From Streptantibioticus cattleyicolor NRRL 8057 = DSM 46488 (GTDB taxonomy: Bacteria; Actinomycetota; Actinomycetes; Streptomycetales; Streptomycetaceae), in NCBI RefSeq assembly GCF_000240165.1, contig NC_017586.1:4278001-4342000 (forward strand): 64,000 nt of DNA, in the 5' to 3' direction. Made by a program: the position numbers and the translations under genes. Positions 20,515 to 35,812 of this stretch are shown piece by piece. Each line of letters begins with the position of its first letter. The first letter of the stretch is position 1. A model generated the notes under the pieces. It worked only from the letters and a program-made list of their open reading frames with translations. It was not told the origin of the DNA and ran no database searches.

Positions 20515-22965
20515 CTAACCGTCCGGCCTGGGCGAACGCCGGACGGCCGGCCACCCCACGGGTGACCGGTCGTCCGTCGCGTACGCCCTCGCGCGGCTCA
20601 GCCGGCGACGGCCTCCTCGGCCACGACGGCCTTGGCGGCCGTCTTGCGGGTCGTCCGCTTGCGCGGCGCGGGTGCCGCGTCGGCCTCGGCCGGCTCGGCG
20701 GCGACGGCCTTGCGGGTCGTCCGCTTGCGCGGCGCGGGTGCCGCTTCGGCTTCGGGAGCCTCGGCGACGGCCTTGCGGGTGGCCCGCTTGCGCGGGGCCG
20801 GGGTCGCTTGGGCTTCGAGTGCCTCGGCGACCGTCTTGCGCGTGGTGCGCTTGCGCGGGGCCGGGGTGGCTTCGGCCTCCGGGGCGTCGGCTACCGCCTT
20901 GCGCGTGGTGCGCTTGCGCGGGGCGGGCGCGGCCTCGGCCTCGGGTGCTTCCGCTACCGCCTTGCGGGTCGTGCGCTTGCGCGGCGCGGGGCGCCTCGGC
21001 CTCCGGTGCCTCGGCGACGGCCTTGCGGGTGGCCCGCTTGCGCGGGGCCGGGGTGGCTTCTGCCTCGGGGGCGTCGGCTACCGCCTTGCGGGTGGTGCGC
21101 TTGCGCGGGGCGGGCGCGGCCTCGGCTTCGGGGGCCTCGGTCGGCTCGGCGGCCACGGCGGCGGCCTTGCGGGTGGTCGTGCGCTTGCGCGGGGCCGGGA
21201 CGGTCTCGGTGACCGGCGCCGTGACCTCGGACGCGGTCTCCGGCGCCGCCTCGGGCTCGGCGACGGCCTTGACGGCACGGGTACGACGGCGGGCGGGCTT
21301 GGCGGGGGCCTCGGCCGCCGGCTCCAGCACCGTCACCGCGACGGGAACCTCGACCGGCTCGGCCACCGCAGCCACCGGAGCGGAATCCACCGGAGCGGAA
21401 TCCACCGGCGCCAAGGCCACCGGGGCGGAGGCGCCCGACCGGGTACGGCGACGGCGGCGCGGGGTGCGACGGCCTTCCGGAGCCTCCGGCGCGGCGGAGT
21501 CGCCGCCCTCGGCCACGGCGGCCGGCTGCTCGGCCGGGGCGTCGGACGTCTGGCCGCCACGGGTACGGCGACGGCGGCGCGGCGTACGTTCCCGCCGGGG
21601 CCGCTCGGCCTCCGGCTCGGCGTCACCGCGGCGGCGGCCACGCGGCCCCCGTCCGCCGGTCTCGCCGAGGTCCTCGATCTCCTCGGCGGCGAGCCCGGCC
21701 CGGGTGCGCTCGGCGCGCGGCAGCACACCGGTGACGTCCGTCGGGATGTCCAGCAGCTCGTAGAGGTGGCCGGAGGTGGAGTAGGTCTCCTCCGGCTCGT
21801 TGAACGACAGGTCGAGCGCCTTGTTGATCAGCTGCCAGCGCGGCACGTCGTCCCAGTCGACCAGGGTGATCGCGGTGCCCGAGGCGCCCGCCCGGCCGGT
21901 GCGGCCGACCCGGTGCAGATAGGTCTTCTCGTCCTCGGGGCACTGGTAGTTGACGACGTGGGTGACGCCGTCCACGTCGATGCCGCGCGCGGCGACGTCG
22001 GTGCACACCAGCACGTCGACCTTGCCGTTGCGGAACGCGCGCAGCGCCTGCTCGCGGGCGCCCTGGCCGAGGTCGCCGTGGACCGCACCGGCCGCGAAGC
22101 CGCGCCGGGAGAGCTGGTCGGCGACGTCGGCGGCGGTGCGCTTGGTACGGGCGAAGATCATGGCGAGCCCGCGCCCGCGCGCCTGGAGGATGCGGGAGAC
22201 CATCTCGACCTTGTCGAGCGAGTGGGCCCGGAAGACGTGCTGGGTGATGTTGGCCACGGTCGCGCCCTCGTCGTCCGGGGCGGTGGCCCGGATGTGGGTG
22301 GGCTGCGACATGTAACGGCGGGCGAGGGAGATCACCTGGCCGGGCATGGTGGCCGAGAAGAGCATGGTCTGGCGCTTGCGCGGCAGCATCTCCATGATCT
22401 TCTCGACGTCGGGCAGGAAGCCCAGGTCGAGCATCTCGTCGGCCTCGTCGAGCACCAGCGCGCGCACCGAGCCCAGCGCCAGCTTGCGCTGTCCGGCCAG
22501 GTCGAGCAGCCGGCCCGGGGTGCCCACGACCACGTCGACGCCCTTGTTCAACGCCTCGACCTGCGGCTCGTACGCCCGGCCGCCGTAGATCGCCAGCACC
22601 CGCACGTCACGTACCTTGCCGGCGGTGAGCAGGTCGTTGGTGACCTGGACGCACAGCTCCCGGGTGGGGACCACGACGAGGGCCTGCGGGGCGCCGTCGG
22701 CCAGCTCCTCGGGCCGGGCGCGGCCGGCCTCCACGTCGGCGGCGACGGTGACGCGCTCCAGCAGCGGGAGGCCGAAGCCGAGCGTCTTGCCGGTGCCGGT
22801 CTTGGCCTGGCCGATGACGTCGTTGCCGGCCAGCGCGACCGGCAGGGTCATCTCCTGAATGGGGAACGGGGTGGTGATGCCGACGGCCTCGAGGGCCTCG
22901 GCGGTCTCGGGGAGGATCCCGAGATCACGGAACGTCGTGGTGGACAGGGTGCTTGCCTCTTCCAT
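20515..22965 (-). CDS. DEAD-box RNA helicase with repetitive, frameshifted C-terminal tail
   Basis: 816 residues as read. The two RecA-like lobes are intact: Q-motif region to residue 40, Walker A AKTGTGKT (54-61), PTREL, GTPGR, DEAD (173-176), SAT (204-206) and HRVGRTGR (351-358). After residue ~430 the protein is a basic, Ala/Pro-rich tail with tandem repeats of about 21 residues (KRTTRKAV plus an acidic APEAEA stretch). At 20985-20995 the repeat is 2 nt short, so the frame changes and the last ~160 residues lose the pattern. The original frame would end at 20598 (VVAEEAVAG). The tail probably binds RNA. Homologous to RhlE/CshA-type helicases acting in ribosome or mRNA metabolism. Confidence 0.9.
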   Translation of the reverse strand: MEEASTLSTTTFRDLGILPETAEALEAVGITTPFPIQEMTLPVALAGNDVIGQAKTGTGKTLGFGLPLLERVTVAADVEAGRARPEELADGAPQALVVVPTRELCVQVTNDLLTAGKVRDVRVLAIYGGRAYEPQVEALNKGVDVVVGTPGRLLDLAGQRKLALGSVRALVLDEADEMLDLGFLPDVEKIMEMLPRKRQTMLFSATMPGQVISLARRYMSQPTHIRATAPDDEGATVANITQHVFRAHSLDKVEMVSRILQARGRGLAMIFARTKRTAADVADQLSRRGFAAGAVHGDLGQGAREQALRAFRNGKVDVLVCTDVAARGIDVDGVTHVVNYQCPEDEKTYLHRVGRTGRAGASGTAITLVDWDDVPRWQLINKALDLSFNEPEETYSTSGHLYELLDIPTDVTGVLPRAERTRAGLAAEEIEDLGETGGRGPRGRRRGDAEPEAERPRRERTPRRRRRTRGGQTSDAPAEQPAAVAEGGDSAAPEAPEGRRTPRRRRRTRSGASAPVALAPVDSAPVDSAPVAAVAEPVEVPVAVTVLEPAAEAPAKPARRRTRAVKAVAEPEAAPETASEVTAPVTETVPAPRKRTTTRKAAAVAAEPTEAPEAEAAPAPRKRTTRKAVADAPEAEATPAPRKRATRKAVAEAPEAEAPRAAQAHDPQGGSGSTRGRGRARPAQAHHAQGGSRRPGGRSHPGPAQAHHAQDGRRGTRSPSDPGPAQAGHPQGRRRGSRSRSGTRAAQADDPQGRRRRAGRGRRGTRAAQADDPQDGRQGRRGRGGRRRLSRARAYATDDRSPVGWPAVRRSPRPDG
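20650..21195. repeat. Tandem 63-bp coding repeats in the helicase tail
   Basis: The motif CGCTTGCGCGG recurs at about 20656, 20722, 20785, 20848, 20911, 20974, 21035, 21098 and 21181 (plus strand). Most steps are 63 bp (21 codons). One step (20974 to 21035) is 61 bp and causes the frameshift. Confidence 0.9.
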
Positions 22966-31112: not shown

Positions 31113-32101
31113 CCGGTTACGTCCTGCGCCGGCTCGTCGGCATGGCCGTTGTCCTGCTGGTGCTCTCGGTGGTCGTCTACGCGGTCTTCTACCTCGCCCC
31201 CGGCGACCCCGCCCAGATGGCCTGCGGCATGCGCTGCGGCCCGGTACAGGTGCACCAACTGCGCGCCCAGCTCGGCCTGGACGAGCCGGTGCTCACCCAG
31301 TACGGCCACTTCCTCATCGGGCTGTTCACCGGCCGCACCTTCGGCTCCGGCGCCGCCGCGCTCCACTGCGACGCGCCGTGCCTGGGCATCTCCTACCGCA
31401 CCAACGAGCAGGTCTGGGCCATGATCACGGCCCGGCTGCCGGTCACCGCGTCGCTGGCGCTCGGTGCCATGGTGGTCTGGCTGCTGCTCGGGGTGGGCAC
31501 CGGGCTCCTCTCCGTGCTGCGCCGCGGCCGGTTCACCGAACGGCTGCTGACCTCGCTCACCCTGGCCGGCACCGCGGTCCCGGTGTTCATCATCGGGCTG
31601 CTGCTCCTGCTGCTGTTCTGCGCCTACCTGCAATGGCTGCCGTTCCCCAGCTACGTACCGCTCACCCAGGACCCGCAGCAGTGGTTCTGGGGGCTGCTGC
31701 TGCCGTGGGTGTCGCTGGCGCTGATCGAGTCCGCCAAGTACGCGCGGCTGACCCGCTCGGCGATGCTGGAGACGCTCGCCGAGGACCACATCAGGACGTT
31801 CCGCGCCTACGGCATCGGTGAGCGCCACCTGGTCACCCGGCACGCGCTGCGCGCCTCGCTCACCCCGGTGATCGCCTTGTCCGCGATGGACCTGGGCACC
31901 ATGTTCGGCAGCGCGGTGCTCACCGAGTCGCTCTTCGGACTGCCCGGCCTCGGGCGGCTGATGGTCGGCTCGGTCAACGTCCTCGACCTGCCGGTGGTGG
32001 TCGGACTCGTCCTGGTCACCGGCTTCTTCGTGGTGGCCGCGGGCGCGGTCGCCGACATCCTCTACGCGGTCGCCGACCGAAGGGTGGTGGCGCGGCCGTG
32101 A
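31109..32101 (+). CDS. Peptide ABC transporter permease (DppB/OppB type)
   Basis: A 330-residue permease beginning with the DppB-type N-terminus (YVLRRLVGMAVVLLVLSVVV, YLAPGDPA). The EAA loop is HIRTFRAYGIGERHLVTRHA and the C-terminal helix bundle is complete. Two Cys-containing inserts (MACGMRCG; LHCDAPCLG) lie in the first extracytoplasmic loop, which is longer than usual. Start GTG overlaps the previous stop by 4 nt. The permease order C then B is reversed from the classical dppBC order. Confidence 0.93.
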   Translation: MTGYVLRRLVGMAVVLLVLSVVVYAVFYLAPGDPAQMACGMRCGPVQVHQLRAQLGLDEPVLTQYGHFLIGLFTGRTFGSGAAALHCDAPCLGISYRTNEQVWAMITARLPVTASLALGAMVVWLLLGVGTGLLSVLRRGRFTERLLTSLTLAGTAVPVFIIGLLLLLLFCAYLQWLPFPSYVPLTQDPQQWFWGLLLPWVSLALIESAKYARLTRSAMLETLAEDHIRTFRAYGIGERHLVTRHALRASLTPVIALSAMDLGTMFGSAVLTESLFGLPGLGRLMVGSVNVLDLPVVVGLVLVTGFFVVAAGAVADILYAVADRRVVARP

Positions 32102-33708
32102 ACGACGCGAACGAGCCGCTGATCGACATCGCGGGGCTCACCGTGGACTTCCCGGTGGCCGACGGCAACGTACGGGCCGTGGACCGGCTCGACCTGCGCC
32201 TCGATCCGGGCGAGGCGCTCGGCATCGTGGGCGAGTCCGGCTCCGGCAAGAGCACCGTCGCCTTCAGCCTGCTGGGGCTGGAACGCGGCACCGGGGCGCG
32301 GGTGACCGGACGGATCCGGGTCGGCGGGATCGACCCGCGCACCGCCGAGGGGGCCGAACTGCGCAGACTGCGCGGGGAGGTGGCGGCCATGGTCTTCCAG
32401 GACCCGCTCTCCGCCCTCGACCCCTACCAGGCCGTCGGCGACCAGATCGCCGAGGTGGTCCGGGCACACCGGGCGCTGCCCCGCAAGGCGGCCCGGGCCC
32501 GCGCCGTCGAGGTCCTCGACCGGGTCGGCATCCCCGACGCCGCCCGCCGCGCGCGGTTCCGTCCGCACGAGTTCAGCGGCGGCATGCGGCAACGGGTGCT
32601 CATCGGCATGGCGTTGGCCTGCGAACCCCGGCTGGTCGTCGCCGACGAGCCGACCACCGCGCTGGACGTCACCGTGCAGGCGCAGATCCTCGCCCTGCTG
32701 CACGAGGTGCGCCGGGAGACCGGCGCCGGACTGCTGCTGGTCACCCACGACCTGGGGGTGGCCGCCGGGGCGGTGGAACGGGTGCTGGTGATGAAGGACG
32801 GCCGCGCGGTGGAGAGCGGCCCGGCCGGACAGGTGCTCGCCACCCCGCGTGAGCCGTACACCAAGGCGCTGCTGTCCGCGGTGCCGCGGGTGGACGCGCC
32901 GCGCGAACCGGCGCGGCGGACCGGGGACGAGGTGCTGCTCCAAGCGGACGGCCTGCGGCGGGAGTTCGGGCGCCGTGGCGCCGCCGTCACCGCCGTGGAC
33001 GGCGTCTCACTGACCGTACGGCGTGGTGAGACGCTGGGCGTCGTGGGCGAGTCCGGCTCCGGCAAGACGACGCTGGGCCGCATGCTGGTCGGTCTGCTGC
33101 CGCCCACGTCCGGGCGGCTGGTCCTGGACGGGCGGGAGCTGACCGGGCTCGGCGAACGCCGGCTCCGGCCGCTGCGGCGCGAGTTGCAGATGGTCTTCCA
33201 GGACCCGGTCGCCTCGCTCAACCCCCGGCGCACCATCGGCGAGTCCGTCGCCGACCCGCTGCGCGCGGCGGGCCGCCCCGACCCCGCCGCCGTCCGGGGG
33301 CGGGTACGGGAACTGCTGGAACGGGTCGGCCTCGACCCGCGCTGGTACGACCGCTACCCGCACGAACTCTCCGGCGGACAGCGACAACGCGTCGGCATCG
33401 CCCGCGCGCTGGCCCCCGGGCCCCGGCTCATCGTCTGCGACGAACCGGTCTCCGCCCTCGACGTCACCACCCAGGCACAGGTCGTCGAGGTCCTCAAGGA
33501 CGTGCAACGGGACCTCGGCGTCGCCCTCGTCTTCATCGCCCACGACCTCGCCGTCGTCCGGCAGATCAGCGACCGCGTCGCCGTCCTGCGGGCCGGTCGC
33601 GTCGTCGAGGAGGGCCCCGTCGACACCGTGTACGACGCTCCCGCGCATCCGTATACGCGGACGTTGCTGGCCGCGGCCCCGATGCTCCCGGCGGGGGCGC
33701 TGGACTGA
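32098..33708 (+). CDS. Peptide ABC transporter ATPase, two fused domains (DppD-DppF)
   Basis: A 536-residue protein holding two complete ATPase domains. Domain 1 has Walker [10 protein letters not shown] (about residues 44-52), signature FSGGMRQRV and Walker B VVADEPT. Domain 2 has GESGSGKTT (about 316-324), LSGGQRQRV and [11 protein letters not shown]. Each has a C-terminal YTKALL/YTRTLL oligopeptide-type tail. Fused DppDF proteins are common in actinobacteria. The GTG overlaps the permease stop. The operon ends here; repeat-rich noncoding DNA begins immediately after the stop. Confidence 0.95.
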
Positions 33709-34038
33709 GGGCTCGCTCGCGCTGGCGTCAGCCATTACCTCCTCGGGGTGCGCCCGTTCCCCGTTTCGTCGTGGCTGGCGTCACAGCTGTTTCCCCCCGC
33801 CCACCCGTGGCTGTGTTCGTACAGTGCGGGGTGCGCACTGTCTGCCTTGGGTCCGGGGGCCCTCCGGGGTGAGGGTTCGCTCGCGCTGGCGTCAGCCATT
33901 ACCTCCTCGGGGTGCGCCCGTTCCCCGTCTCGTCGTGGCTGAGGTCACGGATGTTTCCCCCCCGCCCACCCGTGGCTGTGTTCGTACAGTGCGGGGTGCG
34001 CACTGTCTTCCTGGGTTTCCGGGGGCCCTCCGGGGTGA
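33709..34038. repeat. Direct tandem repeat, 164-bp unit, two copies
   Basis: Copy 1 is 33709-33872 and copy 2 is 33873-34038. Each begins GGG(C/T)TCGCTCGCGCTGG and ends CCCTCCGGGGTGA. They are highly similar, with scattered substitutions (for example TTTCGTCG versus TCTCGTCG). The first copy starts directly after the stop codon of the ABC ATPase gene. No protein signal is visible. Confidence 0.9.
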
Positions 34039-34477
34039 CTCCTCGCTCCGCGTATCCGCCACGGTTGCGCTCCGGTTGCTGGGTCGCTGCGGGGACACCC
34101 CTGCACGCCCCCGTTCTGTTGCGTTCCGCGCTGCGGCACGGGGTGGGTGAGAAAAAAAATCGGGGTCACCCCAACCTCCTCACTCACCCCCACCCGCGAA
34201 GAGAGGCACCCGCCAACGGACAGAAGGGGGTGTGCCGGGGGTGTCCCCGCAGCGACCCAGCGGGGCGGGCGCAACCTTGGAGCGAAACCTGGGGCGAGGA
34301 GTCACCCCCGGCGCGCCCCCGACCCCGTACCGGCAGTAGGCGAAGCCCCCGGTGCCGAACCAAACCAAAAACCCACCCCCACCCCCCACCGGGCAGGGGC
34401 GAACGGGGGCCACCCCGGAACCCTGAAACGGGCGAACCGGCCACCACGTAATGGCTGACCGCCAGCGCGAGCGAACC
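33874..34477. repeat. About 600-bp imperfect palindrome
   Basis: The region is symmetrical about position ~34168. Outer ends 33874-33902 and 34448-34477 are inverted copies (with one inserted base). Inner arms at 34032-34047 and 34294-34308 match. A perfect 23-bp pair lies at 34079-34101 and 34238-34260. The centre is GGGGTCACCCC flanked by an A8 run (34152-34159). The rest to 34834 is noncoding and poor in codon signal. It resembles a MITE-like or decayed mobile element, but no transposase is present. Confidence 0.85.
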
Positions 34478-34834
34478 CGCGCGAGCGGACCCGCCCTAGC
34501 GGGGATTCGGGGGGTTGGGAGGGGAAAGTCGGCGGGGTTCACCCGTTTTGGTGGCGCGGCGGAGGTCTTTTCGTCGGGGTGGTGGGGGACGGGCATAGCG
34601 TCACCCCGTCGTGCTCACCCACGCCCTGAGGGGGTGCCTGTTGCGTTCAGCCGTGCCTGTGCGCTGCCGCGTCACCGGCGAGGCGGACCGTTTCAGCATC
34701 GCGGGGGCGGGGGTGCGGCTGATCGTTTTTGCCGCCACGGGCCGCCGGCGGGGTGGGCCGTGGTGATGGCCGAGTGGGTGATATCCGCCGGGCGCCGCGG
34801 GAGCGGGGCCGGCCGGTCTCGTCCGGGAGGGCGA
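34478..34834. other. Noncoding stretch between the palindrome and the next gene
   Basis: No convincing reading frame, although open frames cross it because stops are rare at this G+C. It ends with the ribosome-binding site of the next gene. No promoter is clear. Confidence 0.5.
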
Positions 34835-35812
34835 ATGAGCGACCACACCGAGGACCTCGTGCAGGCGGTGCTGGAACGCCACCGGGAGCTGTGCGTCCGG
34901 GCGACGCACCCGGTGCAGATCGCGGCGGCGCTGGAGGCGCACGGGGTGACCGACCGGGTCGCCGTCCTCTTCCACCACCGGGACGTGTTCTCCCTCGCCG
35001 AGGAGTTGTACGCCAGGGTGGCGCGCCCGCCGGCCCCGGTGCCCTCGGCGGCCCGCACCGCCGTACTCCACCTGCTGCCCGGGGCGGCCTGCGCGGCCGG
35101 GGTGGTGGCGGTGCGGCTGGCCGGGCCGGACCCGTGGCGCGCGGCGGCCTGCGCGGCGCTGGCGCTGGTCGCGGTGGCGGCGACGACACGGGCCGCGGTG
35201 CGCGAGGGCCCGTTGCGCGGCCCGGCGGTCCCCGGCGGCGCGCTGACCGCGCTGTGGCTGCTGGCGTTCGCCCTCTTCGGCGGCGAGGTGCTGGGCGGCG
35301 CCGGCATCGGCACCCCGGACACCGGGGTCGACGCGGGCGTCCTCGGTCCGGCGTTCGCGGTGCTCCCCGCGGCCTGGTGCGCCCGCCGGTTCGCCGCCCG
35401 CGAGCGCGTCCGGCTGGCCCCGGCCCTCGCCGCGTTCGCCACCGTGGTGGCCGCCCTGTGCGCCGCCGCCTACCTGGTGCTCGCCCTGGCCGGCGCGGAC
35501 GGCCGCCCCGACCCGGTGCGGGCCGGCGGCACGGCCGCGCTCGGCGTGCTGCTCTTCGCCGCCCGGCTGCTCGCCACCCGCGGCCTGACCGCCGCCGCCG
35601 CGGCCGGCTGCGCCGCCGCCTGCGCCGTCGAGGCCGCCGCGCTCGCCGTCACGGCCTGGTCCGGCCCCGCCGTCCGGCCGCTGGACGCCCTGGTGCGGGC
35701 CGGCGGCCCCGGCGCCGTCGAGGCGGTCGCCTGCGCCGTCGCCCTCGCCGCGCTGACCGGCTATGCCCTGCCGGTCCTCGCCCGTACCGCCACCACCTCG
35801 CAGCAACACTGA
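34835..35812 (+). CDS. Integral membrane protein of unknown function
   Basis: A 325-residue protein. The N-terminal 65 residues are cytosolic and helical (EDLVQAVLERHRELCV, VAVLFHHRDVFSLAEELYA). About eight Ala/Leu/Val-rich membrane helices follow. The family is not one I can name. The ATG at 34835 has GGGAGG 5 nt upstream; upstream in-frame starts would run into the repeat region. It is followed within 13 bp by a 22-codon frame and then the epimerase gene. Confidence 0.8.
   Translation: MSDHTEDLVQAVLERHRELCVRATHPVQIAAALEAHGVTDRVAVLFHHRDVFSLAEELYARVARPPAPVPSAARTAVLHLLPGAACAAGVVAVRLAGPDPWRAAACAALALVAVAATTRAAVREGPLRGPAVPGGALTALWLLAFALFGGEVLGGAGIGTPDTGVDAGVLGPAFAVLPAAWCARRFAARERVRLAPALAAFATVVAALCAAAYLVLALAGADGRPDPVRAGGTAALGVLLFAARLLATRGLTAAAAAGCAAACAVEAAALAVTAWSGPAVRPLDALVRAGGPGAVEAVACAVALAALTGYALPVLARTATTSQQH

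Follow-up and report, generated by a model that had tools for sequence, protein, structure and literature searches.

A REP/BIME-like palindromic repeat at gene ends in Streptantibioticus cattleyicolor and its streptomycete relatives

Bacterial genomes carry several kinds of short, non-coding repeat that fold into hairpins. The REP/BIME sequences and REPINs of enterobacteria and pseudomonads are intergenic, often lie 3′ of genes and form hairpins with unpaired bases; their units, 20–40 nt in the case of REP, are arranged as inverted pairs and as mosaics of modules, and are homogeneous within a genome. The ERIC (or IRU) elements of enterobacteria are imperfect intergenic palindromes of ~127 bp, for which we know of no transposase. 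Integron attC sites are likewise imperfect hairpins with conserved unpaired bases, found after stop codons. Lastly, bacterial MITEs are dispersed, non-coding elements bounded by terminal inverted repeats (reviewed in PMC10969869).

Streptomycete intergenic DNA is poorly understood, and the repeat described here is a warning that transcription may be terminated or insulated at such regions in these industrially important bacteria. The window analysed here is a stretch of 64,000 nt from the chromosome of the antibiotic-producing soil bacterium S. cattleyicolor NRRL 8057 (C2:4278001–4342000). The genome comprises this chromosome (C2; 6,282,967 bp) and a second replicon of 1,812,548 bp, which is the S. 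cattleyicolor NRRL 8057 megaplasmid NC_016113.1 (a 6-kb piece is 100% identical).

An initial annotation had described a non-coding palindromic element spanning 33709–34834 of the window. The element in fact occupies 33709–34500, the right end lying near 34478–34500, and consists of a 164-bp unit present twice in tandem together with an imperfect palindrome of ~606 bp, ~600–770 bp in the whole (Table 1); the remainder (34501–34834) is ordinary intergenic DNA, and it still aligns to the promoter region of a neighbouring gene that relatives have retained. The tandem copies had been placed directly at the stop of an ABC ATPase gene (32098–33708), and this is exact: the first unit starts at the next base after the stop codon, and the two units are identical in 153 of 166 alignment columns. 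The palindrome, originally estimated at ~600 bp with a centre at ~34168, is centred on ~34170 and has inverted arms at 34059–34119/34220–34280, 34018–34056/34284–34322 and 33873–33891/34460–34478. The perfect arm, reported as 23 bp, measures 24 bp, against a maximum of 12 bp when this stretch was base-shuffled 20 times. Folded as a single strand, 33873–34478 is predicted to reach −391 kcal/mol (z −12), and 0 of 20 dinucleotide shuffles were as low. A run of eight A had been noted at the centre; the run is real but lies ~15 nt off centre, and six or more A at this position occur in only 2 of 40 copies, the window copy and one other.

Table 1. Features of the palindromic element and its right border, in window coordinates
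Feature	Position	Strand	Remarks
Outer tail unit (first 164-bp tandem copy)	33709–33872	+	First base directly follows the stop codon of the ABC ATPase gene
Second 164-bp tail unit, joined to left core hairpin	33873–34036	+	
Left terminal inverted repeat, GGGTTCGCTCGCGCTGGCGTCAGCCATTAC	33873–33903	+	Most frequent left end among family copies
Left core hairpin unit, GGGGTGACTCCTCGCTCC...GGGTCGCTGCGGGGACACCCC	34019–34114	+	CM match C2:4312019–4312114
Left 24-bp perfect arm	34078–34101	+	
Centre between the two cores	34115–34224	no strand	Mosaic sequence blocks and copy-specific A8 (34152–34159)
Right core hairpin unit	34225–34321	−	Inverted relative to the left one; CM match C2:4312224–4312322
Right 24-bp perfect arm	34238–34261	−	
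Right tail module	34322–34478	−	Ends in right terminal inverted repeat 34448–34478
Partial extra copy of terminal repeat, CCCGCGCGAGCGGACCC	34476–34500	−	
Promoter-region remnant of a glycosyltransferase gene lost from the locus	34537–34637	+	Outside the element; marks its right border

Related copies, for which a search had been proposed, are abundant. DNA and pattern searches of the S. cattleyicolor genome located the element at at least ~50 chromosomal sites, and further copies are present in relatives; it is not a one-off recombination relic. Copy numbers here and below are lower bounds, the searches scoring only their best candidates. None of the matches listed in the own-genome searches fell on the megaplasmid, an outcome with P=3e-6 for copies distributed in proportion to replicon length. 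A complete copy has the order tail modules, core (+), centre, core (−), tail modules. The S. cattleyicolor copies include 40 inverted dimers, in which the units are inverted, the modules mosaic and the blocks freely assorted, and 40 complete cores have a mean pairwise identity of 89%. Tandem repetition of the 164-bp tail unit is confined to some copies. A ~30-bp terminus, GGGTTCGCTCGCGCTGGCGGTCAGCCATTAC, is common to both element ends: more than 70% of left ends begin no further than 6 nt from it, and about half of right ends reach it, the others being truncated. Half elements are present in two chromosomal regions, L120 (C2:2304381–2311216) and L123 (C2:2576199–2581245).

With dispersed intergenic copies, a covarying hairpin and inverted mosaic units, the element is of the REP/BIME-like kind. 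We are confident in assigning it to the REP/BIME/ERIC-like palindromic intergenic repeats, as the form that a widespread streptomycete family takes in S. cattleyicolor. It differs from REP, BIME and REPIN sequences in its unit of ~100 nt rather than 20–40 nt, its palindromes of up to ~770 bp, the lack of a RAYT (Y1) partner in the S. cattleyicolor genome, and its sequence and hosts. With ERIC it shares the imperfect intergenic palindrome, but no sequence relation is known, and the present element forms inverted dimers with tandem tails in a different phylum. The initial annotation had recognised no named element, and the same is true of Rfam 15, in which nothing scored above the gathering threshold at any copy (one sub-threshold, microRNA-like match was attributed to GC-rich pairing), and of the literature searched, in which subscription journals were thinly covered, so that its undescribed status is provisional. 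An RNA survey covering S. avermitilis lists mobile/repeat candidates (PMC11109978). The family is a structured one without an Rfam entry and apparently without a name; it is located at gene ends, and a single genome can hold 98 matches or more.

The conserved unit is a hairpin of ~95–112 nt, with a long, GC-rich outer stem (20+ bp), a variable inner stem and loop, and flanking tail modules. Its asymmetric internal loop is fixed, with TC opposite TGC, and the bases around the loop (CTCC-TC-G...C-TGC-GGGG) are invariant. The hairpin is conserved by covariation: in an alignment of units from genus g6 (A2), 16 of 31 pairs carry two-sided changes, 0 of 500 shuffles reached the observed value on any of five measures, and structures slid along the alignment dropped to background. 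Covariation was not significant on the R1 alignment alone, which holds Streptantibioticus-type and S. cattleyicolor units. The outer stem of S. cattleyicolor contains a fixed A·A mismatch, so that its single hairpin is weaker than those of relatives. In GGGTG(A/T)CTCC, 86 of 90 S. cattleyicolor cores have A, and relatives mostly have T. A large structured RNA had been among the initial proposals, and the structure is indeed strong, but what is conserved is only the ~100-nt hairpin. A giant hairpin kept by arm-to-arm pairing was rejected, the similarity between arm loops of the same copy being 0.684 against 0.683 for shuffled pairs (P=0.47); because the two arms of a copy do not have matching variable loops, the whole giant palindrome is not under selection via these loops.

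Outside S. cattleyicolor, exact core matches were found first in S. ferralitis, S. rubrisoli and Streptomyces sp. RPT161, where copies are mostly single units that fold into ~95-nt hairpins, mostly of −45 to −74 kcal/mol. A covariance model (R1) used with strict filters detected the family in at least 15 of 121 Streptomycetaceae genomes and at least 4 of 17 genera. In genus g6, which is probably Streptomyces in the broad sense, the unit is 107–112 nt long and has a clear inner stem that varies in sequence by species with its pairing kept. A second model (R2) found the family in at least 24 of 35 genomes of this genus, with between 1 and at least 98 matches in each; inverted unit pairs lie 240–300 bp apart, and in one genome (G070) this layout recurs in larger mosaics. 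As the hairpin family is present in other species and genera, the window element is a local version of a family-wide repeat and not a cattleyicolor invention. On a tree, the cores from S. cattleyicolor are set apart from the others by a branch with support 99/87. Several copies in relatives are located at contig ends, and the element may explain assembly breaks in those genomes.

All 51 scored copies are intergenic: none lies inside a gene called with a simple codon-usage gene caller, and no called gene lies inside any copy, which bears out the lack of coding signal noted initially. The copies are placed close to stop codons. The gap between a gene 3′ end and the element has a median of 9 nt (39/56 are 20 nt or less), compared with 134.5 nt at gene 5′ ends (2/46; P=3e-14 for 3′ versus 5′), and in several copies the stop codon falls inside the element end. 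Sites between convergent genes are mildly enriched (13/51 versus 26/205; Fisher P=0.03). Insertions near promoters may have been purged, which could account for the short distance to stop codons. Terminator-like sites number only two, against 0.7 expected by shuffling, and none is at the core; the location is compatible with an intrinsic terminator or a 3′-UTR stabiliser.

The window locus itself offers a comparison. In four relatives, the ATPase gene is followed by a glycosyltransferase gene (DUF3492 plus group 1) and then by the counterpart of the gene at 34835, and in all four the element is absent from this locus. Their spot between the ATPase stop and the conserved promoter holds unrelated, species-specific hairpins, with tail-like modules in S. 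rubrisoli. In the window, the element occupies this same spot, the promoter region is retained, and the glycosyltransferase coding sequence is missing, its best match elsewhere being 49% identical. That the element fills the relatives' hairpin spot supports the view that repeats of this type take up the terminator space that follows a stop codon and precedes the next promoter. We consider it somewhat probable that the element is a 3′-flanking terminator-space repeat homogenised by gene conversion, through a mechanism that we in part infer. It would persist by fitting the space between stop codon and next promoter, where its hairpins might stand in for a terminator, an insulator or a 3′-end-protecting stem–loop on either strand.

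The initial annotation had also named a MITE-like element among its readings. A MITE or REPIN-like non-autonomous transposon would be moved in trans by a lost or unrecognised transposase, and its adjacency to stop codons would reflect target preference or purging. Much of the layout fits: the family is dispersed and non-coding, it has ~30-bp inverted ends, with the commonest end in over half of the copies, and the inverted pairs recall REPINs. Presence and absence at a syntenic site, a check that had also been proposed, fits as well, as the same convergent gene pair is separated by 569 bp in one species and by 62 bp in another (a third species has other repeat modules). This shows gain or loss of the element, in either direction. 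However, direct repeats are not in excess at the flanks of the 21 copies whose two ends are intact, which therefore show no target-site duplication, and a classical DDE-transposon MITE is not supported on this test despite the terminal inverted repeats. The Y1 (RAYT) transposase domain PF01797 had no match in the S. cattleyicolor genome, with control genomes positive, and a REPIN/RAYT system was discarded on that ground and on unit length (95–112 nt, not the short 20–40-nt REP). No autonomous relative with the same ends was found, the matches listed in the own-genome DNA search being element copies only. Moreover, the megaplasmid is without copies, many ends are ragged, and several sites are long-standing, being common to related species. 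Overall, movement by a transposase is an unlikely account of this family, although one that keeps some weight.

Other mobile sources were discarded individually. A plasmid origin found no match in 72,556 plasmid records, which also counts against the transposon reading, and a phage origin found none in viral contigs searched with the exact gapped motif. A tRNA or tmRNA attachment relic was dismissed, there being no tRNA within the window. In two genomes a pair of inverted copies is separated by 1.75 kb, and an autonomous element between them was considered and set aside: the enclosed gene is alpha/beta-hydrolase-like, is the same in both and is no transposase. At L128 (5300–6210) an IS of ~870 bp with a DDE transposase gene lies inside an element copy; it was inserted into that copy and is not its source.

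Some positions of the element are old. Core hairpins occur at shared sites in three species in one case (L127 with L190 and L203) and at a further pair of loci (L130 with L191); shorter remnants mark weaker shared sites (L124/L207 and L134/L199), and at L133 and L174 the element adjoins the 3′ end of the same gene. Among 40 dispersed S. cattleyicolor copies, variant linkage falls from an r2 of 0.39 at 5 bp or less to 0.025 at 41–80 bp, and the four-gamete fraction rises from 0.19 to 0.95 at 41–80 bp (0/1000 permutations). Linkage vanishes into background within ~40 bp, so dispersed copies exchange short tracts; their identity is independent of chromosomal distance, and a second genome shows the same trend of decay, over ~80 bp. 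At the alpha/beta-hydrolase-like gene flanked by inverted copies in two further species (L258 and L259), these copies are identical within each species (108/108) and match at 94 of 108 positions between species. Copies within one genome therefore swap short tracts and evolve in concert, at positions some of which are old and common to species, and they behave as a single pool that recombines freely over millions of bases. The family offers a tractable case for asking how bacterial non-coding repeats can spread and keep their similarity when no transposase is involved.

From the linkage patterns we infer gene conversion as the probable route of exchange, and hypermutable sites could add homoplasy. 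The question of gene conversion as a route of REP evolution was raised early on by Higgins et al. 1988 (cited in PMC4681348). For a terminator-space repeat, the exchange would be RecA-type gene conversion, possibly begun by breakage of the long palindrome, and new sites would be rare, coming from inserted element fragments and not from the action of a target-duplicating transposase. A stronger version would have the palindromes propagate themselves, replication breakage and repair from another copy driving both homogenisation and spread without a transposase, with the hairpin and its fixed unpaired bases as the recognition site of a host nuclease or recombinase; this extension appears to us rather improbable.

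Concerted evolution could also arise by selection for a common binding sequence, were the element a cis-acting DNA site for protein binding, nucleoid organisation, or replication and segregation. Its restriction to the chromosome, the invariant loop sequence on both strands and the lack of orientation bias relative to genes (by inspection) would suit such a site. So would the biggest copy-free chromosome stretch (C2:2728244–3598119; 0.87 Mb, P=0.03 under uniform placement), which includes dnaA at 3.284 Mb; depletion of copies around the replication origin is possible. A range from 0 to at least 98 copies within one genus is, however, odd for a housekeeping site, adjacency to stop codons is unexpected, and the tails are homogenised too. 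A binding-site role is in our judgement decidedly doubtful.

A folded-strand recombination site comparable to attC, at which a recombinase or nuclease would recognise the unpaired bases within the hairpin and neighbouring genes would have been captured, is very improbable. The conserved asymmetric unpaired TC/TGC and the position of hairpins at gene 3′ ends are attC-like features, and L120 has a cassette-like look, in that each of three genes has, within ~20 nt of its end, a half element pointing in its own direction; L123 holds a similar cluster. Read by eye, however, the conserved core lacks the GTTRRRY/RYYYAAC boxes of attC, most copies lie outside arrays, the palindrome has two units, and relatives have positions in common but not gene content.

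Further repeats and RNAs were encountered alongside the element. The tail module AGGGGCGCGGGGAACTGCGCGACAAGCCACGAC occurs beside hairpins and also alone in other genomes (flanks of L278–L297), and is apparently a widespread streptomycete intergenic repeat. Positions 841–969 of L203 match the Rfam family Scr4115, a Streptomyces sRNA, just above the gathering score. Elsewhere in the window, at 20615–21140, lies a 63-bp tandem repeat array of about eight copies.
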